55,294 nucleotides of DNA from Methanomicrobiales archaeon (lineage in GTDB: Archaea > Halobacteriota > Methanomicrobia > Methanomicrobiales > Methanospirillaceae): NCBI GenBank assembly GCA_012729535.1, contig JAAYCY010000054.1:1-55294 (forward strand), given 5' to 3'. The position numbers and the translations under genes were made by a program. This document shows positions 5,556 through 55,133 of this stretch, piece after piece. Each line of letters opens with the position of its first letter. Within the stretch, counting starts at the first letter, position 1. The notes below the pieces were generated by a model that was not told where the DNA came from, made no database searches, and saw nothing but the letters and a program-made list of their open reading frames with translations.

Positions 5556-6026
5556 ACATATCAGAACATGGACAAGACACTAATATGTTTTTACTGGTCG
5601 CTACAGACTCCAATGGCAGGTGTTCATATACCCGTTGTTCAGGGAGACAGGATTATTTCAGAAACGCTTGTAAGCAGAATCCGGTGCAGACAATTGCTGA
5701 CAACAGCAAGTCGGATTATGTGCAGTTTTCTTGAATTATTGTGGATCTCCGTTTCAATGGGTACAATCCGCCAAACCGTCAGTAGTTACTCTTCTTACAC
5801 AATGACCGTACCAGCATCAAATCTCTCGGTGGTGCCCATTCTCCTCACAAAAAGGAGAGAAAAACACCATTTTTTCCGTATTTGTATAGAACCGGATGAC
5901 ACAGATGTTTTTCAAAAGTGATTTTTGAAGATCTGATGTCTGTTCGGGAGAAGATAATCGATTATATTCGATTTTTCTATTTTGCTGGTTGCATTATCTG
6001 CAAATGGTTCATTAGTGAGGATTGAA

Positions 6027-6498
6027 ATGAAGTATATTCAGACAACCTGTCCGTATTGTGGAACCGGGTATTCGTTCAACTTAGTTGTTCATGACCGCAA
6101 TACCGTTTAAGTACCAGGCAGAACGCCCTGATAAGGACTATCCATTCCTGCTGACTACCGGTAGAAGCATCTGGCAGTGGCATACCGGCACTATGACCCG
6201 GAGATCGAAAAGCCTGGAGCGGGAAGAACCTACCGGCTGGATAGAAATTAACACCGAAGACGCCAAGTCTCTTGACATAAAGAACGGAGAACTTATCAAG
6301 GCCATTACCCGTCGTGGTGAAATTAAGATCTCAGCACGTGTTACAGAAAACATAAAGAAGGGTGTTATGTTCATCCCATTCCACTATGCAGAATGTGCTG
6401 AAAATATGCTCACCATCAATGCCCTTGATCCAGTGGTAAAAATTCCGGAGTCAAAGGCCTGTGCCGTTAAAGTTGAGAAGATTACGGAGGTGAAATGA
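6027..6498 (+). pseudogene. fdhA: fdhA remnant, internally deleted formate dehydrogenase alpha subunit
   Basis: Starts like the intact fdhA at 51920 (MKYIQTTCPYCGTG) but after about 21 codons jumps to the C-terminal part of the gene; the equivalent intact DNA from about 51985 to 53575 (about 1.6 kb, some 530 codons) is missing. The junction changes frame, so the 5' piece ends at TAA 6108-6110, while a 136-codon C-terminal fragment remains open from ATG 6091 to 6498. The fourth cluster cysteine of the CxxCxxxC-type motif is also changed to tyrosine (GTGY instead of GTGC). The Mo/W-pterin active-site region is gone, so no FDH activity is possible. The C-terminal fragment would correspond to the molydopterin dinucleotide-binding domain. 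Confidence 0.9.
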
Positions 6499-6500
6499 GA

Positions 6501-7654
6501 TGGCAGCAAAGGGTGACATGATGTATGCATGGACTACTGATTCAGGAATTGCAGAAAAAAGCTGAATGCGGTGGTGCCGTTACTTCTCTGCTCAAATATG
6601 CCCTGGAAAAGAAGATGGTTGATGCTGTTCTCGCAATAAAAAAGGTCAGGATGTATATGATGCAGTTCCTACGTATATTACCGATCCAAAGGATCTAAAG
6701 GATACGGCAGGATCATTACATTGCGGGAGCCAACTCCTCTCGAAAGTCATCATGAAATATCTCAAAGGCGCTAAGGACAAGAAAATCGCCGTGACCGTGA
6801 AGGGTTGTGATGTCATGGGCCTGTACGAACTTGCAAAGCGGAATGAGATAAACCTGGATAACCTGCTTCTTATTGGTGTTAATTGTGGAGGAACTGTCTC
6901 ACCGGTAAAAGCCCGGAAAATGATCAAAGAAGCCTTCAAAGTTGATCCTGATACTGTTCACATGGAAGAGATTGACAAGGGGCAGTTCATCATTGAATAT
7001 GAAGGAGGACACAAGGGTATTTCCATTGATGAACTCGAAGATGAAGGATTTGGGCGCCGATCCAACTGCCGCAGATGCCTCTACAAGGTACCAAGACAGG
7101 CCGATATTGCCTGTGGGAACTGGGGAGTTATCGGAGAAAAAGCTGGAAAAGCTACATTTGTTGAAGTATGCAGCGACAAGGGAGCAGACCTTATTAGTAA
7201 GGCACTCAAGGATGGAGCTATTGCAACATCTCCTGCAGAACCCAAAGGAATAGATATCAGGGGTAAAGTTGAAGGAGCAATGTTAAAGCTTGGACAAAAA
7301 TGGCGGAAAAAAGACTTTACAAACCTGAAAGACAATCTTTGGAATTCTATCGGTGAGGAGACCTCACGGTGTATCAAATGTTACTCCTGTATTGAAAATT
7401 GTCCTGTATGTACGACAAAAGACATCATAGGAAATGGAAATAAATCCCTTATGGTTGACGATGGAGCAATACCGCCAAACCCAATGTTCCACATGAGGCG
7501 GTTTGCTCACATTTCAGATTCGTGTATTAATTGTGGTCAGTGTGAAGAGCTCTCTGCCATGGATATTCCACTAGCTCTCTTTTCACATGCAATACGAGCC
7601 GAATCAGACCTTGTATTTGCACCAAAACTCGGAGAATCATATTATAAGAATTAA
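6501..7654 (+). pseudogene. fdhB: fdhB remnant, frameshifted F420-dependent formate dehydrogenase beta subunit
   Basis: Closely similar along its whole length to the intact fdhB at 53985. An extra A in an A-run near 6555 breaks the frame after about 17 codons, and a lost G near 6648 (AAAAAAGGTC versus AAAAAAGGGTC in the intact copy) breaks it again; the rest is open from 6752 to 7654. The last cysteine of the second ferredoxin-like motif is serine (CGQCEELS versus CGQCEELC). Flavin/F420-binding parts and the first cluster motif ([14 protein letters not shown]) persist. The ribosome site GGAGGTGA is kept upstream of the ATG. Because both frameshifts sit in homopolymers, assembly error is possible, but the cysteine loss and the broken fdhA partner argue for real decay. 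Confidence 0.85.
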
Positions 7655-28060: not shown

Positions 28061-28239
28061 TTAATTGCAAATTTTAGTGACTTCCCAGTGGAAATGCAGA
28101 TGTAGTCTTCTGCATCTAACCATTTCCTGGCAGACACGTAATAGCGGATAATTATCATCTTTGGCGCATTCACAAACGATGGTGTTTGACAGAAGGGATG
28201 TCCCTTGATATCAAAAATGGATAAAAAGAGAGTTGTTCC

Positions 28240-28868
28240 TCTTTAGACAGCCAGTCGTAAAAGAAAGCAGCACAAACAGCACCTAGAACAAAGCCAATCA
28301 CATAAATCGGGAAAAACCCCAGAGATTTGATCCAGTCAGAAGCAGATCTCCCAGGTACAGACCAAAAGTTCTTGCCGGATTAAGGGATGCACCGGAAATA
28401 TTTCATAAGGAAGTAATAATTCCGGCAAATCCAGGTGTCGCGTTCCGGTCAACAGCTGCTCCCATAATAGCTGTCATCGGAAGAAATTTTCCGATAAACT
28501 CAACGCCGATAGCCTGCAGGTAGGATATTCCCGGAAATGGAGTTGTTGCCTCAAGACCTCCGGTGGTCACTGCATCCATACCGACAGAAGCAGCAAAGAG
28601 AAGATTTCCTAACGAAGCAGCGTCAATCCGGGCAAATACCAATGAAACCATATCTCCTGTGGGGAACCGTTTCGTAGCCCAGAGGGCAATACTTACCGCC
28701 GGATTGATGTGCGCTCCTGAAATCCTTCCAAGATCATAAATAACCGTTGCGATGGTAATACCAAATGCAAGACCGATGGCAATCCAGTCTCTAAGACCTC
28801 CAAGAACACCGATACCGATAGTAAAAGGAGTTGCGGTTTTCTCTCCGGAGGCGATCATAAAGGTAAAA
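28240..28868 (-). pseudogene. Decayed aquaporin/glycerol-facilitator copy
   Basis: Close match to the intact MIP gene at 44295-45038. The N-terminal start and first helix are missing. GGG at the conserved TLGNISG has become a TGA stop, about 27 bases between two ATTCC-type direct repeats are deleted, a frameshift lies near the C-terminus, and the original TAA stop is changed to CAA. Both NPA boxes can still be read. The 5' edge is fused to the middle of a DUF2193 copy at a short shared GCTGCTCC sequence. Confidence 0.85.
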
Positions 28869-29355
28869 CTGCTGCTCCATGCTTTGGGTATAGCTGGACA
28901 TAATTATGGTAGCGTTTAGTCAGGAAATCAATGATAATCAGGGCATTAAACCCGTCAAGTTCAAGAATATACTCGGTTGGTGCACCACTCACTCTGGTTG
29001 CAGAGACAGAAGTTGTTCCGGAGATTTGAATTTGGTGACGGATGAAAGCAGACTCTTCTCAATCACATCGGTGACTGCTTCGATAATTCCCATGACCATG
29101 TCATCCTTGCACTTGTTATCGGTAGACTGGGCAATATGATGGGCAACATCTCCGACACAATAAGCCGGAATCGTAACAATATTAGCATAATGGACCTTGT
29201 CTTTAATTACTGCTTCAACAAATGGAAGCATATCCATTTTATATTCTCCCATGTATTTACGGAAATCAAATGAGGACTGACCGACACTGTCCATGAGATC
29301 TGCATGTGCCTTGACCGGGTAATCATAAATGGCACTGAGCATGTCTATCTCTTTT
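28869..29355 (-). pseudogene. DUF2193 fragment, middle part only
   Basis: Corresponds to about residues 210-385 of the intact DUF2193 protein (MLSAIYDYPVKAHADLMDSV versus MLSDIYDHPVKAQADLMDSV). The left half of the gene and the C-terminal cysteine-rich end are missing, and a frameshift near 28990 separates LSLQPE from TEYILELDGFNAL. It is fused directly to the aquaporin remnant, having lost the DUF2180 gene that lies between them in the intact locus. Confidence 0.88.
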
Positions 29356-29464
29356 TATCTGGTATTGTGTATCATAGGGTTATTATCTGCCGGGATTCTA
29401 GTAGAATCGATGGATTGGTTTTTTGAAAATGAATACTAAAAAAAGGTTGGTGGTTCTAATATCT

Positions 29465-33742: not shown

Positions 33743-34705
33743 TCACTGTTCTCTCAATACAGCATATCTGCAGAGATCCATAAGAGGCTTTTTCATCCTT
33801 TCTGACGGCAGATCCTGGACAATTTTTACAGCCATATCACCATATGTTTCTGCTTCCTGCTGGGACTTAATCAACGCCCCGGACGTTCCTACATTTGTGA
33901 GCAGACTCTGGATATCAGTATTCTCTCTATTTCCCTGAATCCAGTCCTCCAATTCCGGTGAGATTCCACCGGTATCATGATACCAAATGAGAGGAAGGGT
34001 TACAAGTCCGGATCTGAGATCACATCCTGGCGACCTGCAAAGTAATACATGGTTAGTATAATCAAGAATATCATCCTTAATCTGGAAAGCCAATCCAAGT
34101 AATTCACCAATCCGGGAATGTTGAAATGATAAATCCTCATCAACTCTCTGAAGTATAGCCCCTGAAAATGCACAAATTTTAAAAAGTGATGCGGTTTTTG
34201 CCTTAATCCAGTTGAAATACTTCTCCCGTGAAAATGAAATATTACGCTCATTCAGGTGAACATTTAATTCTGCCTCTGTAATCTGTTCTAATACCCGGAC
34301 AGTTGAATCAATTATCACAAGGTTTTTAGTTTCTGATATAATCGAGAGAGAAATTGATAAAATCACATCAGCGGTAAGGACTGCCGCTGGAGTTGGTATC
34401 ATTGTGTGTAATGCAGGATTCCCCCTTCTTTCCTGATGTTCATCAACGATATCGTCATGCACAAGAGTTGCAAAGTGAAGTAGTTCAAAAGCTGCAGCAA
34501 CCGGAATCAGTAGTTCTTTTGATGCTCCGGCATTCAGACCAGAAAGAAGAACCAAAAGCCCCCGGACGCGTTTACCCCGGATAATGGAAGGAGCAATAAT
34601 ATCATAGACCTGTCCGGGTAAAACCGATATCCGGTTAAGCATACACTGGTTAACCTCTTCCATGAGATGTACAAGTTCTGGCGGGAGATCTATAATCTGT
34701 GTCAT
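33743..34705 (-). CDS. Polyprenyl diphosphate synthase (IspA/IdsA family)
   Basis: 320 residues. Chain-elongating prenyltransferase with both aspartate-rich motifs, LVHDDIVDEHQERRGNPALH and FQIKDDILDYT, and the K-T motif in IKAKTASLFKICA. The first motif has the short DDxxD form. It would make a linear isoprenoid diphosphate from IPP and an allylic primer; chain length cannot be read with certainty. It is the last gene of a coupled operon with a radical-SAM/SPASM protein and UbiA, and shares four bases (ATGA) with the former. Thus it probably supplies the prenyl donor for UbiA rather than bulk membrane lipids. Confidence 0.92.
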   Translation of the reverse strand: MTQIIDLPPELVHLMEEVNQCMLNRISVLPGQVYDIIAPSIIRGKRVRGLLVLLSGLNAGASKELLIPVAAAFELLHFATLVHDDIVDEHQERRGNPALHTMIPTPAAVLTADVILSISLSIISETKNLVIIDSTVRVLEQITEAELNVHLNERNISFSREKYFNWIKAKTASLFKICAFSGAILQRVDEDLSFQHSRIGELLGLAFQIKDDILDYTNHVLLCRSPGCDLRSGLVTLPLIWYHDTGGISPELEDWIQGNRENTDIQSLLTNVGTSGALIKSQQEAETYGDMAVKIVQDLPSERMKKPLMDLCRYAVLREQ

Positions 34706-35928
34706 TTACATTCATCCCGAAGATAACAGGCGGGATCTTCTGCAAAAACGTCTCCATGAATTGCATATGCCCGTCCCCTGCAACCCCCACAGACTTTTTT
34801 ATATCTACATTCTCCGCATGAACCAGAAAGGTTATCCCGGTTCTGCAAAGCCTGAATAAGAGGGGAATTATGATATATCGAATCAAATGATTCATTCCGG
34901 ACATTTCCACATGAAACCGGGATAAATGGACAAGCGAGAACATCTCCCTGTGGTTTTATGTACACAAATCCTCTTCCTGCACAGCAACCGTGAAAAAGAT
35001 GTTCTGCCCAGGATAAAAGAATCCCTTTTCTGATCCCAGCACTATGCAGTAAATCTGCCCAGTACTGTGGGCCTCCAACAGGTTCCATAATAAGAGATGA
35101 ATCAAACTGACAATTCTTAATTTTTGTAATCAATCGTTTATTTCCTTCTTTACTCAATGCAGAGGGTGCAATTTTTTCTCCCCTTCCTACCGGAATAAGT
35201 TGATAGAGGATAAGGATTGCAGCCCCGAGTTCCTCTGAAGCTGTAATAAGATCGTTTACCTGTTCTTCATTATATTTTGCAATCGTGACATTGATATGCA
35301 GAACTATTCCAGCATCATTAATGGCCTTCATTCCGGAATAAGCTCGCTCAAGGCTTCCTTTTTTACCCCTGATCTGATCATGGATTTTTTCATCTGTTGA
35401 ATCTAGACTTATCGCAGCGATTGAGAGTCCGGCATCAGCAAGTTTTTTTGCAATCTGAGGAGTTATCAAGGTGCCGTTGGATGCAAGTGTTGTTGAAAAT
35501 CCAAGTTTTTTGGCATACTCAAGTATTTCATAAAGGTCAGGCCTGAGTAAAGGTTCTCCTCCGGTAAATGCTACCATCCTGAAACCAGAAATTCGTGCAA
35601 GTTCATCAAGTAGTCTGAATATTTCCAAGGTAGTCAGTTCATCTTCCTTTGTTGTTCTGTCACTAGCATGACAATGGATACAAGAAAGGTTGCAGGATTC
35701 GGTCAATTCAATGACCGGGTGCATCGGAAAACCGATGCATCCCATTCCTTTTGATCCTGAAGCTCCAGGTATGCAGGAAAAACCATGTTTTATTATCCAT
35801 TCCGAAGCTTTTGTCCATCTGGTGAGTGCTGCTACCAGGAGAAGTGAGCCGGTCTGCCTGGCAAGCAGTGAGGGTGGATTATACCATGGTTTCACTTCTT
35901 TTTTTCCTTTTTGCATGATATTCACCAT
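34702..35928 (-). CDS. Radical SAM protein with SPASM-type C-terminal cluster domain
   Basis: 408 residues from the ATG at 35926-35928, which overlaps the upstream UbiA stop (ATGGTGA) and is preferred over the longer frame from 35994. The SAM cluster motif is ESCNLSCIHCHAS, the SAM-binding GGEPLLRPDL is conserved, and the C-terminus has a cysteine-rich auxiliary-cluster region: CCAGRGFVYIKPQGDVLACPF, then CGECRYKKVCGGCRGRA and DPAC. This fits the AhbD/NirJ/PqqE branch that modifies tetrapyrroles, peptides or other cofactors. Residues 1-75 are an extra N-terminal region with a hydrophobic stretch. Its coupling to UbiA and a prenyl synthase suggests action on a prenylated or to-be-prenylated aromatic compound. 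That is inference. Confidence 0.9.
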   Translation of the reverse strand: MVNIMQKGKKEVKPWYNPPSLLARQTGSLLLVAALTRWTKASEWIIKHGFSCIPGASGSKGMGCIGFPMHPVIELTESCNLSCIHCHASDRTTKEDELTTLEIFRLLDELARISGFRMVAFTGGEPLLRPDLYEILEYAKKLGFSTTLASNGTLITPQIAKKLADAGLSIAAISLDSTDEKIHDQIRGKKGSLERAYSGMKAINDAGIVLHINVTIAKYNEEQVNDLITASEELGAAILILYQLIPVGRGEKIAPSALSKEGNKRLITKIKNCQFDSSLIMEPVGGPQYWADLLHSAGIRKGILLSWAEHLFHGCCAGRGFVYIKPQGDVLACPFIPVSCGNVRNESFDSIYHNSPLIQALQNRDNLSGSCGECRYKKVCGGCRGRAYAIHGDVFAEDPACYLRDECK

Positions 35929-36854
35929 AAAAACCCAATAATCCAGGTTAAGGTTATGGAGAGGTTCAGGAGTATTGTTCCGCCACACATCCACTCTCTC
36001 CGGTCAAAATCCTTCCACCAGTTCCGGACTGCCATACTACAAAGAACAAAACCAAGGAAAAAAACCGGGACCATGATAACGATACTACCAAATTTCCATT
36101 CAGCAAGGATTAGAGCACTAATGATTGCCGTCAATATAAAAATAAGATAAACTTTTATTCCGGTATCCATACCAGTTCTTACAAGGAGGTTTCGTTTTCC
36201 CCATTTTTCATCTGCCTCGTAATCTGCAAATTCGTTGATGAGTATAACTGCGACAATAGAACAGATGATAGGAACCGAAATGAAGGTAAGGGTATAGGAA
36301 ATGGTCTGTGTCTGAAGATAATAAGCGGCAGCAATCGGAAGCCATCCATAACAAAATGCAATCCAGAGTTCTCCAAGACCCCGGCTGACCCATCTGACCG
36401 GTTTTGCAGAATAGAGAAATCCTCCTATCATTCCTAGAATTCCTAAAGGGAGGGTAAATGGTCCGGTTTCAAGGCCGAGCCAGATGTAAAGTCCAATACA
36501 TCCTGCACTGATGAGTGCTGTCAGTGATGCCAGCCAAACCATGGAAGGTCTGATAAAACCCTGCTGAATTACCTGTGCCCCACCTGAAAACCGGCTTTTA
36601 CATTCTGATATGACTTCAGAATCTTCATCCTGATCATAATATTCTCCAGCCAGATATGTAGCAAGCATGATGAAGAAGGTTCCTAGAATTCCAAAGAGAA
36701 GAACATCTAATCTGATGAAATATCCATCATACATGGCAAGCACAGTTCCCAGGATAAAGGGGAATATACCAACCGTGTGAAAGGGAAGCCTTGAAAGAAG
36801 AATGAACTTTTGAATGAAAAAAAAGAAATCTGATTTTAAAAAATTGCAGGTCAT
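35922..36854 (-). CDS. UbiA-family prenyltransferase
   Basis: 310 residues, eight or nine membrane helices. The two Mg-binding Asp motifs of UbiA enzymes are visible: AGEYYDQDEDSE in the first loop and NEFADYEADEKWGKRNLLV in the second. The latter is close to MenA/heme-O-synthase-type members. It attaches a prenyl chain to an aromatic or sugar acceptor at the membrane. First gene of the operon, with a TATA box and a 20-bp palindrome upstream. Methanogens use UbiA enzymes for archaetidyl-lipid synthesis and, in Methanosarcina, methanophenazine; here the partner genes point to a specialised product. Confidence 0.9.
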   Translation of the reverse strand: MTCNFLKSDFFFFIQKFILLSRLPFHTVGIFPFILGTVLAMYDGYFIRLDVLLFGILGTFFIMLATYLAGEYYDQDEDSEVISECKSRFSGGAQVIQQGFIRPSMVWLASLTALISAGCIGLYIWLGLETGPFTLPLGILGMIGGFLYSAKPVRWVSRGLGELWIAFCYGWLPIAAAYYLQTQTISYTLTFISVPIICSIVAVILINEFADYEADEKWGKRNLLVRTGMDTGIKVYLIFILTAIISALILAEWKFGSIVIMVPVFFLGFVLCSMAVRNWWKDFDRREWMCGGTILLNLSITLTWIIGFLW

Positions 36855-37916: not shown

Positions 37917-38201
37917 CTATGCATATATTATTTCACTCATAATATTCGGTTTATACCTGGGTTTTATAGAATTCATCATTACCAGGTCAACTTTTCTTTC
38001 GAATAATTCTTCAAGAAAAAATTTACAATCCATAAAATTTTCAAATGTTTTTTCGCCTCTTCGAAAAGAAACCAGAATATCCACATCACTATCCGGCTCT
38101 TCTTCTCCTCGGGCAAATGAACCAAATACCCCTATACTTTCAACACCGAATCGCTTCTTCAGGATTACCTCATGTTCCCGGAGAATCGCGATTACGTCCA
38201 T
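37917..38201 (-). CDS. MNT-type nucleotidyltransferase
   Basis: 94 residues with the pol-beta-like active site GVFGSFARGEEEPDSDVDILV (GS-x10-DxD) and a later aspartate in KVDLVMMN. Such small proteins act as antitoxins that modify a HEPN (DUF86) partner toxin. No HEPN gene is next to it here, so it is either orphaned or acts on a distant partner. Two further copies of this family in the region (40915-40980 and 42460-42789) are broken. Confidence 0.9.
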   Translation of the reverse strand: MDVIAILREHEVILKKRFGVESIGVFGSFARGEEEPDSDVDILVSFRRGEKTFENFMDCKFFLEELFERKVDLVMMNSIKPRYKPNIMSEIIYA

Positions 38202-38329
38202 AAAATTATATGATCATATGCATGACTCTTACTCTAAAGTTTCTGGTTGATACATCCGGATCTCATGTCCTAAAACCGTGAGGGCTGGTATTGTCAATTA
38301 TTGGAAAAGGATATGTTTAATCACATAAC

Positions 38330-38773
38330 TCACATCTTCACTGATTCAGGATAGTACATTCTCATCACCATATCAAGAGCCTCTTCAGGTGTACCTTCCC
38401 ATTTGCCACTTGAAAAGATTGCAGGCTCATATTTCTCATTACGGTACGTATAGATTGCGAGTGTTCATCCTGCCAATTGAAAATATCGGAGGCGACATAA
38501 CTGAGATGGAGTATTTCTCTGCTTTTCAATAAATTCTTCACGGGTGATCCCAAAGTATGACAAACTCTCTTCATCCGGTTCAGGAGGCTCATCATATGCA
38601 TCAATGTAACAAAAATGCCCTTTAAATCTCACATCGATACGAATAAGGCCTTTGATTTCCCCATACTTCTCCTGTGCATATGCAAGTAATCGTTGTTTCA
38701 CTTCAGTCTGTATTTTTGGAGGAATTTTCTCCCCTCCGGATTGAGGACAAAATATCCAGACCTTTTTTGGCAT
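38330..38773 (-). pseudogene. Uncharacterised 147-residue protein with one in-frame TGA
   Basis: Frame from 38773 reads KKVWIFCPQSGGEKIPPKI, FKGHFCYIDAYDEPPEP and QLCRLRYFQLAG, then TGA at 38465-38467, then in the same frame TLAIYTYRNEKYEPAIF and GKWEGTPEEALDMVMRMYY to a stop at 38330. The Trp expected before TLAIYTY makes this a TGG-to-TGA change. I recall similar uncharacterised proteins of about 150 residues in bacteria and archaea but no function. A small gene 36 bases upstream (38810-39064) is probably its partner. Confidence 0.6.
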
Positions 38774-38809
38774 GCTCTCATAATATAATAGATTATTCAG
38801 GAATAATGG

Positions 38810-39064
38810 TTATTCATGAAAAGCCTCGTCATATAATAACTGAAGTTTGTCCACAAGGCTTCTCATTACACGGTATCGTTCAGATTGCTTATCTACATAA
38901 TCATGGTATGAATCATTTTCAAGAATAGAATAATAAACCTCATAGAGTGTCTCAATGTCCCATTGATAGAGACATAATGGTCTTTTCCCTTTATATTTTG
39001 CTATCCTTTCATCCAAACCAAAACATTCTAAGAGTTCATAAGCGTTACAAACAAGCTCATCCAC
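38810..39064 (-). CDS. Small acidic helical protein, unknown
   Basis: 84 residues, mostly alpha-helical and acidic (MDELVCNAYELLECFGLDER, LYEVYYSILENDSYHDYV). No recognised domain. It lies 36 bases upstream of the 38330-38773 gene on the same strand, so they likely form a two-gene unit. Upstream, 39065-39403 contains no supported gene; a short plus-strand frame there is not convincing. Confidence 0.55.
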   Translation of the reverse strand: MDELVCNAYELLECFGLDERIAKYKGKRPLCLYQWDIETLYEVYYSILENDSYHDYVDKQSERYRVMRSLVDKLQLLYDEAFHE

Positions 39065-39403
39065 TTATGCTTTTGTAAGATTAAGATAAAATTTCTTATC
39101 ACCTGATCCGGGTTTAATCATATTCTACCTCTATTCATATTTGTCAGGTATTATCTCCGGAAAATTTCAGTTCATGTAACACTTGCAGCAGTTGCATCTG
39201 TTACAGGGGCAAAAATTGCTTATTCACGGTTTATTTCTCCTGTTATTATCAATCATATTTAATTCTGAAATTGTTCCGGCAATTCAGACTTGGAAAATTC
39301 CATTATGTTATTTAGAAAAACCAGTCAAAATGATTTTACAAGAAATATCATCTCAATATCGAGGATATTCCTCCTGATGAATCACAAAAAAAGAAAAATA
39401 CCA

Positions 39404-40231
39404 TTACTCTCTGTTTTGGCTGATTATGTACGCAACGGTGTACTTTGCATCTCCCACGATACCACTATCGCGTTTGAATACATGTGACTGGGGTATATCA
39501 ACATTATTCAGGGTACTATTAAAACGACTGTTATATATATCGAATTCATATGTTCCTATACGATCAGAACTGGACGTATCCCTCTCCCATACCTCCATTT
39601 TTACATGAGTTGGAACCGTGATATATTGGGGAGACGGCCATTTGGTCTCCCCTGACTTGAGATTATGTTCTTCCCACACATTTTCATCATTGATTTTGAT
39701 AAAAATCTCGTCGCGACTTTCCTGTGCATCATTGCACTTCACAGACTGGATGGTAAGATAATAGGTATGGGGAAGGGTACCATTGCCACTGCCTGTATCT
39801 CTTCCAACTTCGTATGAAATCTGGTAATGGGTTGTGTGTGGTGATGATAGGATATCAGGAAGGTCCCTTGTGAAAACTCCAACCTCTGGAGGTATGGTGA
39901 ATCTGCCAATAAGATCATCCAATAAAGAATTCGTTGACTTTTGATATGGTGAATCATCTTCATATAACAGGAATAATACCTGCTGATTTTCAGGATTTTC
40001 AATAATCTCATTAATTACCCAGCTATCACCATCTTTCATGTCATGACCACCTTTCCCGCCCCAGTCTTTTTCAATACCTGGCCCCCTTATCTCTATCCGA
40101 ATATCATCCGTCGTCTCAGATGTAGTCTCATAGCACATAAGTGATTTTAATTTAATATTTACGGCATCGGCTGTAAAAAGGCTAAAAATAATGACTAATA
40201 TAAAAAGTATTATAAACTTTTTCATCTTCAT
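39404..40231 (-). CDS. Secreted protein with two tandem related beta domains
   Basis: 275 residues with a clear signal peptide (KKFIILFILVIIFSLFTADA). Two copies of one domain are visible: residues about 24-135 (IKLKSLMCYETTSETTDDIRIEI) and about 150-270 (YLTIQSVKCNDAQESRDEIFIKI). Each starts with K/Q-S-x-x-C, an acidic DDIRI or DEIFI strand and a later W(V/E)-rich strand. The pattern suggests a C2-like or Ig-like calcium-binding fold with internal duplication. No enzymatic motif. Monocistronic, extracellular; function unknown. Confidence 0.7.
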   Translation of the reverse strand: MKMKKFIILFILVIIFSLFTADAVNIKLKSLMCYETTSETTDDIRIEIRGPGIEKDWGGKGGHDMKDGDSWVINEIIENPENQQVLFLLYEDDSPYQKSTNSLLDDLIGRFTIPPEVGVFTRDLPDILSSPHTTHYQISYEVGRDTGSGNGTLPHTYYLTIQSVKCNDAQESRDEIFIKINDENVWEEHNLKSGETKWPSPQYITVPTHVKMEVWERDTSSSDRIGTYEFDIYNSRFNSTLNNVDIPQSHVFKRDSGIVGDAKYTVAYIISQNRE

Positions 40232-40324
40232 CGATCATCACAATGTTGCAATACATTGTCATGATACTTATAGGTAATGGATACTCTTCTTACCGTACCC
40301 GATCAACTGCAGGAATTGTTCTCC

Positions 40325-40579
40325 CTATATCGGTTGCTCCCCTTGCAGATCTGATTCCATATGCAGGAACGAAAGATACGGGGCTGAGGTGACAGGAGCA
40401 ATAATTCCTGTATAACCAAAGCAATAACATGCGACAGAAAAGAACAGAAGTGGGGTCCGCCATCTTGCAATTACCTGCCAAATACGACAGGAATAAATCG
40501 TGATTATTACACTGATAAAACCTGAAAAGAAAGGTGCCAAGATGATTGGATTACCGGTAAGCATCACGTTTCCTCCCAA
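40325..40579 (-). CDS. Small membrane protein, possibly a fragment
   Basis: 84 codons with two hydrophobic segments (IILAPFFSGFISVIITIY and LLFFSVACYCFGYTGIIAPV). An overlapping frame (SFVPAYGIRSARG) continues protein-like after its end, so a frameshift near 40380 may have shortened a larger gene. No family recognised. Confidence 0.3.
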   Translation of the reverse strand: MGGNVMLTGNPIILAPFFSGFISVIITIYSCRIWQVIARWRTPLLFFSVACYCFGYTGIIAPVTSAPYLSFLHMESDLQGEQPI

Positions 40580-40660
40580 TTTCAGATAAGTTCTATAAAG
40601 ATAATAGAAGGGTAATCCCTCAATAATATCTTGCTCATCAGCGATTTTTAATCACTCATG

Positions 40661-40763
40661 CCATTGATGCCGCCCGCTTCTTAAATCTGTGTGCAGATTG
40701 TAAATCTGGCTTCATTTGGTGTTAAAATGGAAGATGTCGCCGTTTCGAATCCGACTGGGCCCA
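40661..40763 (+). tRNA. Degenerate tRNA-Tyr(GTA)-like sequence
   Basis: The anticodon arm GCAGATTGTAAATCTGG (anticodon GTA, 40700-40702) is followed by a long variable-arm hairpin (CTTCATTT paired with AAATGGAAG), a T-loop TTTCGAATC and a 3' acceptor strand ending TGGGCCCA. The T-stem has two mismatches and no 5' acceptor strand complementary to TGGGCCC is found. A long variable arm is typical of bacterial and plastid tRNA-Tyr, not of archaeal tRNA-Tyr. It is therefore probably a foreign or broken tRNA, not the cell's tRNA-Tyr gene. Confidence 0.35.
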
Positions 40764-40914
40764 TAAATGCTGATATCAGGTCTTCAGAGCATAATATCGC
40801 TTTTTTCGAGCATTATTTTTGTTTGAATCTTCAAAAGCAGGTACAGGCGTGAACTCATGTTTACCAAGTTCAGGATCACAGATGAAGGTTTAAGAGATAC
40901 TTCTATTCTTCAAC

Positions 40915-40980
40915 CTAATCCTGATTATTTTTGTTCGCGACCTCCTGAATATCATCCATAAAAACTAGTATCTGATTCAT
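40915..40980 (-). pseudogene. 5' fragment of a nucleotidyltransferase gene
   Basis: 21 codons (MNQILVFMDDIQEVANKNNQD) closely match the start of the broken gene at 42460-42789 (MNQIPVTMDDIQEIAK). The DNA just upstream of both starts is also alike (TGAGAAT and TGTATG segments). It is a partial duplicate with no active-site region left. Confidence 0.6.
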
Positions 40981-41108
40981 ATTGCACCTTTTCTATTTTC
41001 ATTGAGATTGATCCCATTATGACTATAATCATCATCAAGAATCTCTAATTGTTGGATGAGACAATGTATGTGATCAAAGCACAGTGCATTCCGAATCGGC
41101 TATCATTA

Positions 41109-41513
41109 TCATTGGAACTGGTTTTTCATACTTTCAATAAATTCAGCGGGCGTCATTACTAAGATATCATCCGGAAAATGTCTGGTATTTCCTGTAATAA
41201 GTGGAACCTTGCTATGAAATACCAGTTCATAAAAAGGCCGATCAGAAGAGTCAGGAAGGTTTTTCAAAACCGGAGGGGGGACAATCCATAATCCTTCATG
41301 TTTAAAGAATGAGAGTAGAGCATTCACATCATCCGGAGAAAAACCAAACCTGGGCCTTTTCAGAACCTCATCGTATTCATGAAAAACCCTGCTATCCAGT
41401 ATGATTCGGACTTTTCTGGCAATTATCATCCGGACTATTGTTGCAGGATTTCCATGGGGGTTTAAAAGACCTGAAACCAGAACATTTGTATCGATGACAA
41501 TGATATCATTCAT
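41109..41513 (-). CDS. PIN-domain toxin (COG1569-type)
   Basis: 134 residues. PIN-fold ribonuclease with acidic residues in VIDTNVLVSGLL, a glutamate in FHEYDEVLKRPRF and the final aspartate region PDSSDRPFYELVFHSKVPLITGN. It matches the PIN family of putative toxins that cleave RNA. Its start overlaps the end of the upstream antitoxin gene by eight bases, the normal order for such pairs. Reading frames of both are intact, unlike most neighbours. Confidence 0.9.
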   Translation of the reverse strand: MNDIIVIDTNVLVSGLLNPHGNPATIVRMIIARKVRIILDSRVFHEYDEVLKRPRFGFSPDDVNALLSFFKHEGLWIVPPPVLKNLPDSSDRPFYELVFHSKVPLITGNTRHFPDDILVMTPAEFIESMKNQFQ

Positions 41514-41790
41514 GAATCATCTCATTTCTGACTTCATGAATTTCTTTATTAATATCAGATAATTTCAGTTTTTCTAAACCCGATTTTTTACTTTTCTCCC
41601 ACATATGCTCAATTGCAAGTTCAGCTCTCAATCTCCGGATAAGGTCAAGTACTTCTTCAGGTTCTCCGTTAATTGAGATTGAAATGACTTTTGGTTTTCC
41701 ATTCACTGTAATGATGGTATCTTTATCTTCGCCCTCTTTCCATAACAATGCAGGATTTGATCTGAGTTCTGCTGAAGAAATATATCTCAT
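41506..41790 (-). CDS. Antitoxin of the PIN toxin pair
   Basis: 94 residues. The N-terminus MRYISSAELRSNPALLWKEG followed by TIITVNGKPKVISISI is Phd/YefM-like in layout (DNA-binding strand-helix with a variable C-terminus). The C-terminal part (about 45-94) is charged and helical and would wrap the PIN toxin. It precedes and overlaps the toxin gene. Such proteins usually repress their own promoter. Confidence 0.8.
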   Translation of the reverse strand: MRYISSAELRSNPALLWKEGEDKDTIITVNGKPKVISISINGEPEEVLDLIRRLRAELAIEHMWEKSKKSGLEKLKLSDINKEIHEVRNEMIHE

Positions 41791-44265: not shown

Positions 44266-44294
44266 CCAGCCCATCCAAAAAAAGTTAAAAAAAA

Positions 44295-45038
44295 TTATTC
44301 CTCTTTAGACACCCAGTCATAAAAGAGAGCAGCACAAACAGCACCAAGAACTGGTCCAATTACATAAATTGGGAAAAAACCCCAGAGATTTGAACCGCCA
44401 AGAAGCAGATCTCCCAGGAACGGACCAAAGGTTCTTGCCGGATTAAGGGATGCACCGGAGATATTCCCTAAAGTAGTAATAATTCCAGCAACCGTAAGAC
44501 CTATCACAATTCCGGCAAATCCGGGTGTTGCATTCCGGTCAACTGCTGCTCCCATGATAGCGGTCATCAGGAGAAATGTTCCAATGAACTCAACTATTAT
44601 AGCCTGCAGGTAGGATATTCCCGGAAAAGGTGCTGTTGCTCCAAGACCTCCGATGGTCACTGCATCCATACCGACAGAAGCAGCAAAGAGAAGACTTCCA
44701 AGCGATGCACCGACAATCTGGGCAAATACGTATGAAACCATATCTCCGGTTGGAAACCGTTTCGTTGCCCATAGAGCAATACTGACCGCCGGATTAATGT
44801 GTGCTCCTGAAACCCTTCCAAGTCCGTAGATAACCGCTGCGATGGTAATACCAAATGCAAGGCCGATGGCAATCCAGTCTCCAAGGCCCCCAAGAGCACC
44901 GATACCGATATTAAAAGGAGTTGCGGTCTTCGTTCCGGAGGCTATCATAAGGGTAATAACCGCTGCTCCGGCACCAAAATAGACCAGAAACAACGTTCCG
45001 ATACATTCAGCAACTGCCCGTTTTACAAGAGTTACCAT
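44295..45038 (-). CDS. Aquaporin / glycerol-facilitator family channel (MIP)
   Basis: 247 residues, six membrane helices and the two NPA half-helices, SGAHINPAVSIAL and SGASLNPARTFGPF. N-terminus RAVAECIGTLFLVYFGAGAAV is typical. The residue after the second NPA is Arg of the selectivity filter. MIP proteins carry water, glycerol or other small neutral solutes; selectivity cannot be assigned. It is the last gene of a DUF2193-DUF2180-MIP operon, and an eroded copy of the same gene pair lies at 28.2-29.4 kb, so linkage to DUF2193 predates the duplication. Confidence 0.95.
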   Translation of the reverse strand: MVTLVKRAVAECIGTLFLVYFGAGAAVITLMIASGTKTATPFNIGIGALGGLGDWIAIGLAFGITIAAVIYGLGRVSGAHINPAVSIALWATKRFPTGDMVSYVFAQIVGASLGSLLFAASVGMDAVTIGGLGATAPFPGISYLQAIIVEFIGTFLLMTAIMGAAVDRNATPGFAGIVIGLTVAGIITTLGNISGASLNPARTFGPFLGDLLLGGSNLWGFFPIYVIGPVLGAVCAALFYDWVSKEE

Positions 45039-45042
45039 TGAT

Positions 45043-45249
45043 TCACCTTTTCAGAGCCGTCCTGCACTCTTCACACAGAATCCGGGGAATTTTTACCTGT
45101 GTCTTTGTAGCCGGGAAGGGATATCCTCCCTCCCAGACCTGGGTATCTTCACGAATAGCATGTTCCATACAAAGACCCATTCCACAAACGATGCAGATTC
45201 CTACAGCCTCTGTGTCTTTCCCAGCTTTTGCACAGACATAACATTTCAT
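45043..45249 (-). CDS. DUF2180 zinc-ribbon-like protein
   Basis: 68 residues from the ATG at 45247-45249 (GAGGTAG ribosome site; the longer frame to 45291 would overlap the upstream gene). Four paired cysteine motifs are visible: MKCYVCAKAG, GICIVCGMGLC, a histidine in CMEHAI and CEECRTAL at the end. It should bind one or two metal ions, probably zinc. This matches the archaeal DUF2180 family of unknown function. It lies between DUF2193 and MIP with 4-10 base gaps, so all three are co-transcribed and perhaps act together. Confidence 0.88.
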   Translation of the reverse strand: MKCYVCAKAGKDTEAVGICIVCGMGLCMEHAIREDTQVWEGGYPFPATKTQVKIPRILCEECRTALKR

Positions 45250-45259
45250 ACCGGCTACC

Positions 45260-46759
45260 TCATACTGCTTCACGATACTGACAGTATTCATGTCTGAAAT
45301 CTACACAGGAGGCCGATGCGCAGCCTTTACATATCCGGGCCGGAGCTGCCGCAACATCTTTTTTCAGAGCAATGATGTTTGTCATGAGTGTTGCCGTGAT
45401 TGGTTCACTGGTCAGCAGGCAGGGATAATCGGATAGTCTCATCAGAGCAGACATCCGGACGGTTATGGCACAGGCAGGATATGCATACCACTGGGGATTA
45501 TTGATTATTTCATGGGTGAGTACCGGGGATAGATCTACGGGCAGCCCGGATACGGTGACTTTCATCTCTTTTCCGCTTCCGTTCCGAAGTTTTCGAGCCC
45601 GGTCCATGATGTTCCATCCACGAAAGATCATATCCATAAAGTCACAGTTATGAAGTTCAGCTGCCGCTCCACGCTTTGGATAGAGCTGAACATAATTGTG
45701 GTACCTCTTTGTCAGGAGATCAATAATCATCAGGGCATTAAACCCGTCAAGTTCAAGAATATACTCGGTTGCTGCAGCACTTGCTCCGGTTGCAAGAGAC
45801 AGCAGTTGTTCCGGAGTCTTGAATTTGGTAACAGATGCAAGCAGACTCTTTTCGATAACATCGGTGACTGCCTCGATAATTCCCATGACCATGTCATCCT
45901 TGCACATGTTATAGGTAGACTGGGCGATGTGATGGGCAACATCTCCGACACAATAAGCCGGAATGGTCACAATGTTTGCATAATGGACCTTGTCCTTGAT
46001 TGCTGCTTCAACAACAGGAAGCATAGCAGTTTTATATTCTTCCATATATTTGCGGACATCAAATGAGGACTGGCCGACACTGTCCATGAGATCTGCCTGT
46101 GCCTTGACCGGATGATCATAAATGTCACTGAGCATCTCTATCTCTTTTTTTACAGCGGTTGTTAGAGTTTCTCCACCTTCGATGGCATGGGCAAATACAT
46201 CACCGACACCATAACTGGTATTCATTCCCCATGATTTTGCGGCAAGAATGGCCTTTTTATGATCATCCGGAATGTTTGTCTTTCGTAAAATCTGGTTAAC
46301 GACGTTGCTTGTACTTCCGGGAACAAGAGCAAAGTCCACTACACAGGTAGGCCCGTAAAATCCCCCATACCGCCGGGTAGATTCTAGACCAATAATGCTT
46401 TCACTCTTTTTTATCTGAGTGATAAATTCTTTGACACTCTTTTTAAACGAAGGATCTTTTTCGTATAAAATTTCAAGAATTACCGGAGTCTGGTAATGCT
46501 CGACAAAAGGATCATCTTCAGGCCGGATAGTTTTTGCAAGTTTTGACAGAATAGTATAATGCGCCTTTACTGATTCCTTATGTAAGTCGATGACTGACTG
46601 ACTTTGTTTTCCAATTGCTTTCATTTCCGAAACTGCATCAAGGTACACTTTTGCATCGGTAAGTTTGAATGAAGTTCCGCGTTTCTTCTTAATCGTTTCA
46701 ACATCAGCTTTCTGGGCAGCCATTGCTTCCCGAATCATCTTCTCATACAGGTCTTTCAT
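45260..46759 (-). CDS. DUF2193 methanogen protein
   Basis: 499 residues from ATG 46757-46759, supported by the ribosome site AGGTGAG (46766-46772). Soluble and largely helical. Recognisable stretches are RRYGGFYGPTCVVDFALVPGS, YGVGDVFAHAIEGGETL, VGQSSFDVRKYMEEY, and the strongly conserved IPAYCVGDVAHHIAQSTYNM with a possible His-His metal site. A C-terminal cysteine-rich tail, CKGCASASCVDFRHEYCQY, could bind a cluster or zinc. Members occur in methanogens and have no established function. It heads an operon with DUF2180 and MIP. It may produce, sense or consume the solute moved by the channel; that is inference. Confidence 0.88.
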   Translation of the reverse strand: MKDLYEKMIREAMAAQKADVETIKKKRGTSFKLTDAKVYLDAVSEMKAIGKQSQSVIDLHKESVKAHYTILSKLAKTIRPEDDPFVEHYQTPVILEILYEKDPSFKKSVKEFITQIKKSESIIGLESTRRYGGFYGPTCVVDFALVPGSTSNVVNQILRKTNIPDDHKKAILAAKSWGMNTSYGVGDVFAHAIEGGETLTTAVKKEIEMLSDIYDHPVKAQADLMDSVGQSSFDVRKYMEEYKTAMLPVVEAAIKDKVHYANIVTIPAYCVGDVAHHIAQSTYNMCKDDMVMGIIEAVTDVIEKSLLASVTKFKTPEQLLSLATGASAAATEYILELDGFNALMIIDLLTKRYHNYVQLYPKRGAAAELHNCDFMDMIFRGWNIMDRARKLRNGSGKEMKVTVSGLPVDLSPVLTHEIINNPQWYAYPACAITVRMSALMRLSDYPCLLTSEPITATLMTNIIALKKDVAAAPARICKGCASASCVDFRHEYCQYREAV

Positions 46760-46965
46760 ACTCTTCTCACCTATGTCTCCAACAGACACTGAAAATAATC
46801 CTGTATCTTACAGGAATATTCACATCTGGCCTTTGATTTCGTCGGCCTGGATGATGATGATCTTCTAAATTACCATGAAACCTGTCTTCATGATCACCAG
46901 CAGACCAGACCTTACATAGGAGAGATTGTGCTGGTTCTATTTAAGTATGTAAGAAATAAAAAAGG

Positions 46966-51444: not shown

Positions 51445-51919
51445 ATAAAAACCAGTATTGGACAAGAGTCTGGGCTGTTTCTTTCCGGATAAAACAAACA
51501 TACAATGGTACGCAAATTATCATATCCATTCCGGAGAAAAGCAGGAGCCACCTTCCGAATTTGTATTTTACTTTTCTTTGGCAGAAAATTATCCTTTCAA
51601 AAACTGAGAAGAACACTGTATTCTTCTGTTATGGGTTTATTGTCATACCATGGACTCGTTTGTTTCTCTTCCTGTATACTGAGCATACCAGCATTCAACC
51701 TCTCGAATGAGAGATCACCCATTCCAAGTGTGGGGAATGGAACGCTTATTTTTCCAGAAATATCTCATTTTGATATTTTCGTAAATTATTATCTAATTAC
51801 ACGGACAAATAAGCAGAATTTTCAAAGAGAGAAGAAAATAGAATCGGATAGAGCAGGCTTCTTTTTTCTACCAAGTGCTGGATCCATGAATCGCTTAAAG
51901 TTCGTAAGTGAGGGAAGAT
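51445..51919. other. Leader region of fdhAB
   Basis: About 475 bases before fdhA. AGAAGAACAC and other short matches suggest weak similarity to the region before the fdhA relic, but no conserved structure is clear. GTGAGGG (51908-51914) serves as ribosome site for fdhA. No separate gene is supported. Confidence 0.3.
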
Positions 51920-53983
51920 ATGAAGTATGTACAGACAACCTGCCCGTATTGCGGGACCGGATGTTCGTTTAATTTAGTTGTTGTTGAGGGAAAAGTTGAG
52001 GGAGTTGCTCCATACCAGCGATCTCCGGTTAACGAGGGGAAACTATGCCCGAAAGGAACCTATGCCTATGAATTTATAAACAGCCCTGACCGGTTGAAAA
52101 AACCCCTGATAAAAAAAGACGGGAAATTTGTTGAGGCTTCCTGGGATGATGCATTAAAGCTCATCGCTGATAAATTCAAGTCATATAGGCCAGATGAATG
52201 TGCCTGTCTTGCATCAGCACGAACCTCAAATGAGGATAACTATGCGATGATGAAGTTTGCCCGTGGAGTGCTGAAGACCAGGCACATCGATCATTGTGCC
52301 CGTCTTTGTCATGCATCCACTGTTGCGGGGCTAGCAAACATCTTCGGTTCAGGAGCGATGACAAACTCCATTGGTGACATAGCAGAGTCAAAATGTGTTT
52401 TTATCATCGGTTCCAACACCTTTGAAAACCACCCACTGATTGGCCGCCGTGTTATGGAAGCGAAGGCGAAGGGAGCAAAGGTGATCTATGCAGATCCACG
52501 ACTCACCCCAACCGGGAAGCAAGCTGACCTCTTCCTCCAGTTCTATTCAGGGACTGATGTCTGTCTCATGAACGGGATGATGCAGATCATCATCAAAAAC
52601 GGATGGGAAAACAAGGAATTCATAGAGAAGCGATGTAACGGGTATGAAGAGCTCAAAAAAGAGGTCATGAAAGATGATTACAGCCTTGAAAATGTCGCCA
52701 AGGTGACCGGTGTCCCTGCAGATAAAATTAAAACCGCTGCAGAATGGTTTGCAAAATCAGGAACTTCAGCAATCCTCTATTCGATGGGTATTACTCAGCA
52801 CACCGTCGGTGTTGATAATGTCAAATCAACAGGTAATCTGCAGATGCTGACTGGAAACCTGGGCAGGCCGGGAACTGGAGTGAATGCCCTTCGTGGACAG
52901 AATAACGTGCAGGGAGCCTGTGATATGGGAGCTCTGCCCGTTGTGTTCACGGCATATCAGAAGGTTATCGATGAAGCAGCTCATAAGAAATTCACCGATG
53001 CCTGGAAATTCCCTGACGGCATCGCCGAAGGAAAGAATGGGTACGAAGTAACGGTCATGATGGATGTTCTTACCGAGAAACCGGGAGAACTGAAATGCCT
53101 GTATATCATGGGTGAAAATCCGATGATATCTGATCCAGACCTGACTCACGTTAAACATGCACTCAAGACACTTGAGTTCCTCGTCGTCCAGGATATCTTT
53201 ATGAACGAGACAGCTGAGCTGGCCGATGTGGTCCTTCCGGCTGCTTGTTATGCAGAAAAGGACGGGACACAAACAAGCACGGAGCGACGTGTTCAGATGT
53301 GGAGAAAGGCCCAGAATCCACCCGGAGAAGCCAAGGGAGACTGGGAGATAATTGCATCGCTCGCTGCAAAAATGGGCTATGGAGCTCAGTTCCCCTGGAA
53401 GACTTCAGAGGAGGTCTTCAACGAGATGGCATCGTTAACGCCGTCATACGGAGGAATGACCTATGAACGGCTAAGTAAACCAGAAGCCCTTCACTGGCCA
53501 TGCCCGGCAAAGGACCACCCGGGAACACCGATCCTCCATGGAGAAAAGTTTGGTATGCCTGACGGAAAGGGTCTTATGACTGCGATTCCGTTCAAATACC
53601 AAGCTGAACGCCCGGATAAAGACTACCCGTTCCTGCTGACTACCGGGCGGAGCATCTGGCAGTGGCATACCGGTACGATGACCCGGAGATCCGCAAGTCT
53701 TGAGAGAGAAGAGCCAACAGGCTGGATCGAGATGAATCCTGAGGATGCAAAAGCCCTTGACGTGAAGAACGGAGAGAAGGTCAAAGCAGTCAGCCGACGG
53801 GGAGAGATCGAGATTACTGCCCGTGTCACTGATACCATCAAGAAAGGTGTCATGTTCATCCCGTTCCATTATGCCGAATGTGCAGCAAACGTCCTGACGA
53901 TCAATGCTCTTGATCCGGTGGCAAAGATCCCGGAGTCAAAGGCCAGTGCTGTGAAGATTCAGAAGATTGTGGAGGTGAAATAA
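51920..53983 (+). CDS. fdhA: Formate dehydrogenase alpha subunit, cysteine type
   Basis: 687 residues from ATG 51920 (ribosome site GAGG at 51910-51913; an in-frame GTG at 51908 is less likely). Oxidises formate to CO2 at a Mo or W bis-pterin centre. The N-terminal cluster motif is TTCPYCGTGCSF with a fourth cysteine in EGKLCPKGTYAYE. The active-site cysteine, in place of selenocysteine, is in HCARLCHASTVAGL. ADVVLPAACYAEKDGT and the C-terminal dinucleotide-binding domain (TGRSIWQWHTGTMTRRS, FIPFHYAECAAN) are complete. It passes electrons through FdhB to F420. It forms an operon with fdhB two bases downstream and is the intact partner of the relic at 6027-6498. Confidence 0.98.
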   Translation: MKYVQTTCPYCGTGCSFNLVVVEGKVEGVAPYQRSPVNEGKLCPKGTYAYEFINSPDRLKKPLIKKDGKFVEASWDDALKLIADKFKSYRPDECACLASARTSNEDNYAMMKFARGVLKTRHIDHCARLCHASTVAGLANIFGSGAMTNSIGDIAESKCVFIIGSNTFENHPLIGRRVMEAKAKGAKVIYADPRLTPTGKQADLFLQFYSGTDVCLMNGMMQIIIKNGWENKEFIEKRCNGYEELKKEVMKDDYSLENVAKVTGVPADKIKTAAEWFAKSGTSAILYSMGITQHTVGVDNVKSTGNLQMLTGNLGRPGTGVNALRGQNNVQGACDMGALPVVFTAYQKVIDEAAHKKFTDAWKFPDGIAEGKNGYEVTVMMDVLTEKPGELKCLYIMGENPMISDPDLTHVKHALKTLEFLVVQDIFMNETAELADVVLPAACYAEKDGTQTSTERRVQMWRKAQNPPGEAKGDWEIIASLAAKMGYGAQFPWKTSEEVFNEMASLTPSYGGMTYERLSKPEALHWPCPAKDHPGTPILHGEKFGMPDGKGLMTAIPFKYQAERPDKDYPFLLTTGRSIWQWHTGTMTRRSASLEREEPTGWIEMNPEDAKALDVKNGEKVKAVSRRGEIEITARVTDTIKKGVMFIPFHYAECAANVLTINALDPVAKIPESKASAVKIQKIVEVK

Positions 53984-53984
53984 G

Positions 53985-55133
53985 ATGGCAGCAAAAGGCG
54001 ATATGATGTATGCCTGGACTACAGACAGTGAGATCGCAAAAAAGGCTGAATGCGGAGGTGCTGTCACAGCACTGCTCAAGTATGCCCTGGAAAACAAGAT
54101 GGTAGATTCAGTTCTGGCCATAAAAAAGGGTCAGGATGTCTATGATGCGGTTCCAACCATCATCACTGATCCGAAAGACCTCAAGGATACTGCAGGATCC
54201 CTTCATTGTGGAAGTGTACTCCTCTCGAAGGTTCTCAAAAAATACCTCAAGGGTGCAAAGGATAAGAAGATTGCAGTCACCGTGAAGGGCTGTGATCTGA
54301 TGGGAATTCTGGAACTTGCAAAGAGGAATGATATCAACCGGGACAATCTCCTTCTTATCGGGGTGAACTGTGGTGGTACGGTCTCACCGGTAAAAGCAAG
54401 AAAGATGATCAAGGAAGTGTTCCAGGTCAACCCTGATACCGTACACAAGGAAGAGATTGACAAGGGCCAGTTCATCATCGAATACGAGGGAGGTCACAAG
54501 GGAATCAAGATTGATGAGCTGGAAGATGAAGGCTATGGAAGAAGGACAAACTGTCGCCGGTGCCTCTATAAAGTACCGCGGCAGGCTGATCTTGCCTGTG
54601 GGAACTGGGGAGTCATCGGAGAGAAAGCGGGAAAAGCCACCTTTGTTGAGATCTGCAGTGACAAAGGTGCAGATCTCATCACCAAGGCAGCCAAAAGCAA
54701 TGCTATCGGGACTCAGGCTGCGGATCCAAAAGGGATCGAGATCCGTGGTAAGGTAGAAGGTGCCATGCTGAAACTTGGTGAGAAGTGGAGAAAGAAAGAC
54801 TTCACCAGCTTGAAGGACAATCTTTGGAGCGCCATCGAGAAAGAGACATCACGGTGTATCAAGTGTTATTCATGCATCGAAAACTGTCCGGTATGCGTTT
54901 CTACTGGAGAAAACGGGAAGAAATCTCTCATGGTGGATGCGGGTGCAATTCCCCCAAGCCCGATGTTCCATATGAGGAGATTTGCACACATATCCGATTC
55001 CTGTATCAATTGTGGGCAATGTGAAGAACTCTGTGCAATGGATATTCCACTGGCACTCTTTTCACACGCGATAAGATCCGAAGCAGATGTTGTATTTGAA
55101 CCAAAACTGGGCAAATCAACATATTCTAACTAA
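53985..55133 (+). CDS. fdhB: Formate dehydrogenase beta subunit, F420-reducing
   Basis: 382 residues. FrhB/FdhB-family flavoprotein that reduces coenzyme F420 with electrons from FdhA. The N-terminal half binds FAD and F420 ([40 protein letters not shown]). [18 protein letters not shown] with CGNWG gives one cluster region, and two ferredoxin motifs, [14 protein letters not shown] and [16 protein letters not shown], lie at the C-terminus. The start is two bases after the fdhA stop with a GGAGGTGA ribosome site. A T-rich tract with TTTTTTT follows the stop. Compared with the relic at 6501-7654, all cysteines are present. Confidence 0.98.

Follow-up and report, generated by a model that had tools for sequence, protein, structure and literature searches.

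A UbiA-radical-SAM/SPASM gene pair, joined by a polyprenyl synthase gene in a Methanomicrobiales archaeon, as a candidate for late steps of a prenylquinone-type pathway

The window analyzed in this work, viz. a stretch of 55,294 nucleotides from a Methanomicrobiales archaeon, contains on its minus strand (33743-36854) genes for a UbiA prenyltransferase, a radical-SAM/SPASM protein and a polyprenyl diphosphate synthase, which follow each other head to tail in this order, and the question raised by this locus is what product such a set of enzymes might serve. The initial annotation had proposed a prenylated aromatic compound or redox lipid, made by three translationally coupled genes. All three genes are present at exactly these coordinates, with Pfam scores well above the cut-offs. 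The UbiA gene (35922-36854, 310 aa) is the first gene of the operon, and it is followed by the radical-SAM/SPASM gene (34702-35928, 408 aa from the first ATG) and the gene for a long-chain type trans-polyprenyl diphosphate synthase (33743-34705, 320 aa). The four-base ATGA overlap between the last two genes is real (34702-34705). However, the seven-base overlap claimed for the UbiA and radical-SAM genes exists only if translation starts at the first ATG (35928), and it disappears with a second ATG at 35916, which gives a product of 404 aa and leaves a gap of five bases after UbiA. Because a GGTGA ribosome-binding site (35922-35926, minus strand, within the 3' end of UbiA) is located five bases before the second ATG, the latter is the likelier true start. 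A gap of this size is still consistent with translational coupling, and the proposal of a coupled operon is upheld.

The synthase matches Pfam polyprenyl_synt with 149.7 bits (cut-off 27), and its best NCBIfam and PDB matches are hepta-, hexa- and octaprenyl synthases. Two Asp-rich motifs are present, viz. DDIVD (34442-34456, minus strand) and DDILD (34061-34075, minus strand), the first of which is preceded by A and T at positions -5 and -4. In this enzyme family, small residues at these positions before the first DDxxD suggest a long chain, and the sequence thus suggests that the operon synthase makes a long-chain product. This gene is a second copy, as the usual polyprenyl synthase of the window genome is encoded elsewhere (C49); two such synthases are found in 5 of 6 genomes carrying the radical-SAM gene, and only one in 5 of 6 non-carriers.

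The UbiA protein scores 83.6 bits against Pfam UbiA (cut-off 34.2) and has the two Asp-rich motifs and the predicted all-helical membrane fold of this superfamily. Its best NCBIfam models are of MenA types, at 60-90 bits, all under their cut-offs (best 90 of 277; TIGR00751 57.7 of 102), and it does not belong to the MenA equivalog. In the first Asp-rich motif, GEYYDQDED (36621-36647, minus strand), the E, D and D are invariant in 14 relatives, with NEYFDY...D found at this position in the relatives from ANME-1; in the second, NEFADYEAD (36210-36236, minus strand), the E, D and D are likewise invariant, and the motif is followed by GKRNLLVR as in MenA. The AF2 model (pLDDT 91) matched UbiA-fold structures including UBIAD1. 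UbiA-fold enzymes also make archaeal lipids, and in the fold search DGGGP synthase structures came first by E-value, from which one may consider that the operon modifies membrane lipids or polyprenyl phosphates with no quinone involved. However, the best TM-score was obtained for UBIAD1, the ANME-1 UbiA is linked to MqnD (see below), and the lipid-type UbiA of the window genome is a separate gene (C14), which clusters in the tree with the lipid UbiAs of relatives and apart from the operon UbiA clade. The operon UbiA is thus not the DGGGP synthase, and its identity with an archaeal-lipid enzyme, named in the initial annotation as fatal to its reading, is ruled out; a lipid modification of some other kind is in our view improbable. 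The window genome also contains a broken third UbiA gene (C69; L202, approximately 6540-6860), whose match to the family is limited to the N-terminal half and which contains a stop.

For the radical-SAM protein, the Pfam scores are 111.9 bits for Radical_SAM (cut-off 29.5) and 34.9 bits for SPASM (cut-off 21.5), so that the SPASM-type region noted at the outset is genuine. The cluster motif CX3CX2C (CNLSCIHC, residues 79-86; 35671-35694, minus strand) has invariant Cys residues, and the seven Cys of the SPASM region (residues 315, 333, 371, 374, 380, 383 and 401; 34726-34986, minus strand), which is expected to hold two auxiliary clusters, are invariant or almost so among relatives. Cys64, N-terminal to the core, is also invariant. 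In addition, the N-terminal region, with the pattern PPSLLxRQ...W...W...C...H, is specific to the family and conserved across the relatives in its clade; Q25, W38 and W44 in this region are invariant in 16 relatives including those from ANME-1. Within and after the PPSLLxRQ motif (residues 19-49; 35782-35874, minus strand), the AF2 model (pLDDT 85.7, nearest fold PqqE/SuiB) places family-specific helices at residues 19-36 and 41-49, which are partly hydrophobic and could possibly contact the membrane.

The initial annotation had asked whether this protein is AhbD, NirJ or PqqE. It falls below all of the respective cut-offs, viz. 288.8 bits against AhbD (TIGR04545, cut-off 500), 181, 268 and 192 bits against NirJ, NirJ2 and AhbC (515, 500 and 650) and 139 bits against PqqE (TIGR02109, cut-off 381), and in the tree it forms part of a 12-row clade (99/98 support) that stands apart from AhbD. 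The top matches to AhbD and NirJ2 nevertheless speak for a product of the heme O/A kind, in which a porphyrin would be altered at a side chain by the radical-SAM enzyme and prenylated by UbiA, and the fact that the closest characterized radical-SAM families act on tetrapyrroles counts against a prenylquinone. However, AhbDs from other genomes score 519-584 bits, over the cut-off, with one at 464; the heme O synthase (CtaB) model is absent from the UbiA matches at E <= 1e-3; and the ANME-1 homologues adjoin MqnD. A prenylated tetrapyrrole is on these grounds very unlikely. The window genome has separate AhbC/AhbD-like genes (C54).

If the three genes serve a common pathway, one can ask which of them are retained together in other organisms. 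Within the order, the radical-SAM gene is found in 5 of 232 genomes (E <= 1e-90), and in the genus of the window genome in only 1 of 12 (E <= 1e-90). The full trio occurs in G017 (60, 52 and 42% identity to the window operon), in G178 and, outside the order, in G232, whereas G043 has the UbiA-radical-SAM pair with no adjoining synthase. In G048 (L023:8333-10515) UbiA and the radical-SAM gene are both frameshifted with the synthase intact, due to either decay or assembly errors. A scan of named genomes revealed the pair in Syntrophaceae, Smithella, other Deltaproteobacteria, Anaerolineales, Actinomycetota, Aminicenantes, Aigarchaeota and Acidilobaceae, and in all 17 named loci examined (L054-L070) UbiA is directly upstream of the radical-SAM gene. 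A synthase gene adjoins the pair only in the window, G017, G048, G178, G232 and one Anaerolineales locus (L057). Hence, of the expectation that the trio is conserved elsewhere, the part concerning the UbiA-radical-SAM pair, which is widely kept, holds true, but the synthase is an add-on to this conserved core in five archaea and one Anaerolineales. Because the gene order is kept among proteins of approximately 30-60% identity from many phyla, it is more than a chance arrangement. Pairwise distances of UbiA and the radical-SAM protein are correlated in 23 loci (r = 0.94) and also in 14 spread-out loci (0.89), values reached in neither case by any of 10,000 permutations, and the two trees contain the same groups (the window with G017; G043 with G232; the Syntrophaceae groups; the Actinomycetota group with one delta group). 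This agreement of trees and distances indicates inheritance of the pair as a unit, and it fits with its movement and retention as such across domains. The Syntrophaceae neighbors of the pair, which from sequence recognition we take to be TrpS, ScpA/B, RluB and HU, gave no functional clue. An ORF of 555 aa in L135 and long antisense ORFs in L022 were set aside, since these appear to be random open frames or extended ones.

The strongest functional clue for the pair is its linkage in ANME-1 to MqnD, the enzyme by which naphthoate is formed in the futalosine route to menaquinone. The genomes concerned belong to a family (f10) that came from a phylum-wide search and that is identified as ANME-1 by the ANME1-350 probe, the 16S target of which is perfect in 22 of the 32 genomes tested from this family and in none of 3 tested outside it. 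ANME-1 has two related radical-SAM genes, viz. type N, with the N-terminal region of the family, and type B. The UbiA orthologues are 69-81% identical to that of G315, and 10 of 15 high-scoring UbiA genes are directly upstream of a family radical-SAM gene on the same strand, either of type N (G428, G315, G235, G416 and G470, with a partial type N gene in G463) or of type B (G482, G466, G412, G346 and G432). The order MqnD-UbiA-type B is seen in four genomes (G432, G482, G466 and G346), and in other ANME-1 genomes type B follows MqnD with no UbiA between them. The clusters also contain MqnA/D homologues, MqnC above and MqnE just below the cut-off, and one of them has genes which, by sequence recognition, are presumably AroC- and AroD-like. 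That the radical-SAM gene beside MqnD is simply AhbD was considered and rejected, as a tree that includes AhbDs places type B as the sister of the window clade, apart from AhbD, with good but not full support (91/93). The presence of futalosine genes in ANME-1 has been described earlier (PMC9012536, PMC5244752), and this group is predicted to use a quinone (PMC9012536). The neighbors of the type N gene (LarB- and ThiL-like) provided no functional clue. In ANME-1 menaquinone clusters (L190:5830-6864, L191:14013-15047), type B is followed by a further radical-SAM/SPASM gene (type C), which is AhbD/NirJ2-like.

The gene content, the motifs, the predicted folds, the co-inheritance of UbiA and the radical-SAM gene, the MqnD link in ANME-1 and the extra synthase all favor the interpretation that the operon supplies late steps of a prenylquinone-type pathway, which we regard as probable, and the product type proposed initially is to this extent supported. 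The synthase would make a long all-trans prenyl diphosphate, which UbiA would join to an aromatic acid, probably a hydroxynaphthoate-like one; both activities are those to be expected of the protein families. The radical-SAM/SPASM enzyme may then alter the ring of this membrane-bound prenylated product by radical chemistry, a placement after UbiA that is suggested by the gene order, the partly hydrophobic N-terminal helix and the post-MqnD position in ANME-1. This change could be the removal of a carboxylate or a rearrangement, by analogy with the distant relative AhbD, which acts on carboxylates, and our favored guess is a decarboxylation in place of the UbiD/UbiX-like MqnL/MqnM step. The order of steps, the radical-SAM reaction and the redox role of the product are all putative. 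The late futalosine steps MqnP, MqnL and MqnM are themselves predictions (PMC4746308).

If the operon provides only late steps, then the aromatic head group must be accounted for. No match to MqnA/D was found in the window genome or its trio-bearing relatives, in contrast to the ANME-1 genomes, and MqnA/D was absent from 15 of 17 other carriers, the positives being G554 and, weakly, G555. MenD was above the cut-off in none of the 23 carrier genomes, including that of the window (180 bits for the match in G554); some of these genomes are incomplete, and the absence of MqnA/D and MenD is nonetheless consistent among carriers. As the cytochrome b Ni_hydr_CYTB was also not found in the window genome, neither a head-group source nor a redox partner is visible in it, which speaks against the prenylquinone-type interpretation. 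One explanation of this pattern is salvage, in which the operon would prenylate naphthoate or naphthoquinone from neighbors to a menaquinone-like lipid, with the radical-SAM enzyme finishing the ring. Many relatives inhabit anaerobic communities, and quinones are described as growth factors for gut bacteria (PMC5738691). However, the operon contains no transporter, and a radical-SAM step would be needless for plain dihydroxynaphthoate salvage; hence we consider this explanation unlikely. A second explanation, which we view as possible but doubtful, is that in some Methanomicrobiales and Syntrophaceae the pair belongs to a third anaerobic prenylquinone-type route, the head group of which would come from neither the Men nor the futalosine pathway. 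A menaquinone cycle has been inferred for Smithella-type syntrophs (PMC5606693), so that the pair is a candidate for a missing quinone-type pathway in them. If a third route exists, it would explain the quinone assumed in these syntrophs, and hydrogenotrophic methanogens would gain a membrane electron carrier not attributed to them so far.

It could also be asked if this methanogen, which would be one lacking cytochromes, makes methanophenazine or a compound closely related to it. A parallel logic is seen in Methanosarcinales-type genomes (L199:11376-13456 and L085:5202-6848), where a gene resembling that of geranylfarnesyl-PP synthase (GFPS; best match NF040627, 357 of 600 bits) is directly followed by a radical-SAM/SPASM gene of 397 aa. 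However, the radical-SAM protein of these genomes is only 29% identical to that of the window and far outside its clade, and the window synthase, with 91 bits against GFPS_Meth (cut-off 600), is of another type. In the Methanosarcinales-type genomes the only matches were AhbD-like ones that began at residue 68-71, and the window radical-SAM family was not found. A tie to methanophenazine is thus unsupported, and this identity of the product is extremely unlikely. The product may still be new, as the initial annotation suggested, but not by way of methanophenazine. The L199/L085 pair has the heme genes on one side and, downstream of it, the operon for the A-type ATP synthase, and despite the low identity its radical-SAM protein has an N-terminal W-x-PP motif resembling that of the window protein; it is a candidate for a methanophenazine step that is still to be assigned.

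The window also contains a repeated segment (28212-29356 and 44276-46149, 83-89% DNA identity): a 509-aa gene and an aquaporin-like gene, intact at 44295-46789, have truncated and decayed copies across the operon from them, so that the operon region lies between two copies of the segment. A formate-dehydrogenase-like gene pair, intact at 51908-55133, has a partial second copy, with 77-82% DNA identity between the stretches 6007-7639 and 51900-55118. Upstream of the operon (37917-41790) are small genes which, by sequence recognition, we take to be MNT-type nucleotidyltransferase-like and VapBC-like toxin-antitoxin genes, resembling those on a mobile island.

No paper on UbiA together with radical SAM and SPASM, or together with methanophenazine, was found in our literature search. 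The two-gene signature, which did not appear in the papers searched, would tie quinone-type chemistry to ANME-1, Smithella-type syntrophs and a few methanogens, in all of which the membrane electron carriers are unsettled, and it points to an undescribed oxygen-free way of making quinone-like membrane molecules. In comparison with known systems, the family UbiA shares with MenA and UBIAD1 the fold, the second Asp motif followed by GK.NL.VR and the GG.V...G segment, but it differs from MenA in having GEYxD for NDxxD in most non-ANME members, in scoring far under the MenA cut-offs and in lacking a Men pathway. The radical-SAM protein shares with AhbD and NirJ2 the core, a SPASM domain with CX2CX5CX2C and 33-39% identity, but it differs from them in the extra N-terminal PP-L..Q-W-W region, the invariant Cys before the core, its separate clade and its linkage to UbiA. 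PqqE and SuiB are the nearest solved folds, but at approximately 20% identity, and unlike in these systems no peptide substrate gene is seen adjoining the pair. The Methanosarcinales-type pair is similar in that a polyprenyl synthase gene adjoins a radical-SAM/SPASM gene, but its radical-SAM gene is non-orthologous, its synthase is of another type and UbiA does not adjoin it. Lastly, as in the late futalosine steps, a UbiA-family prenyltransferase comes after MqnD, and in ANME-1 the family UbiA follows MqnD directly; however, the pair departs from the described futalosine scheme in that a radical-SAM/SPASM enzyme comes after UbiA and that it is present in the window genome without MqnA/D.
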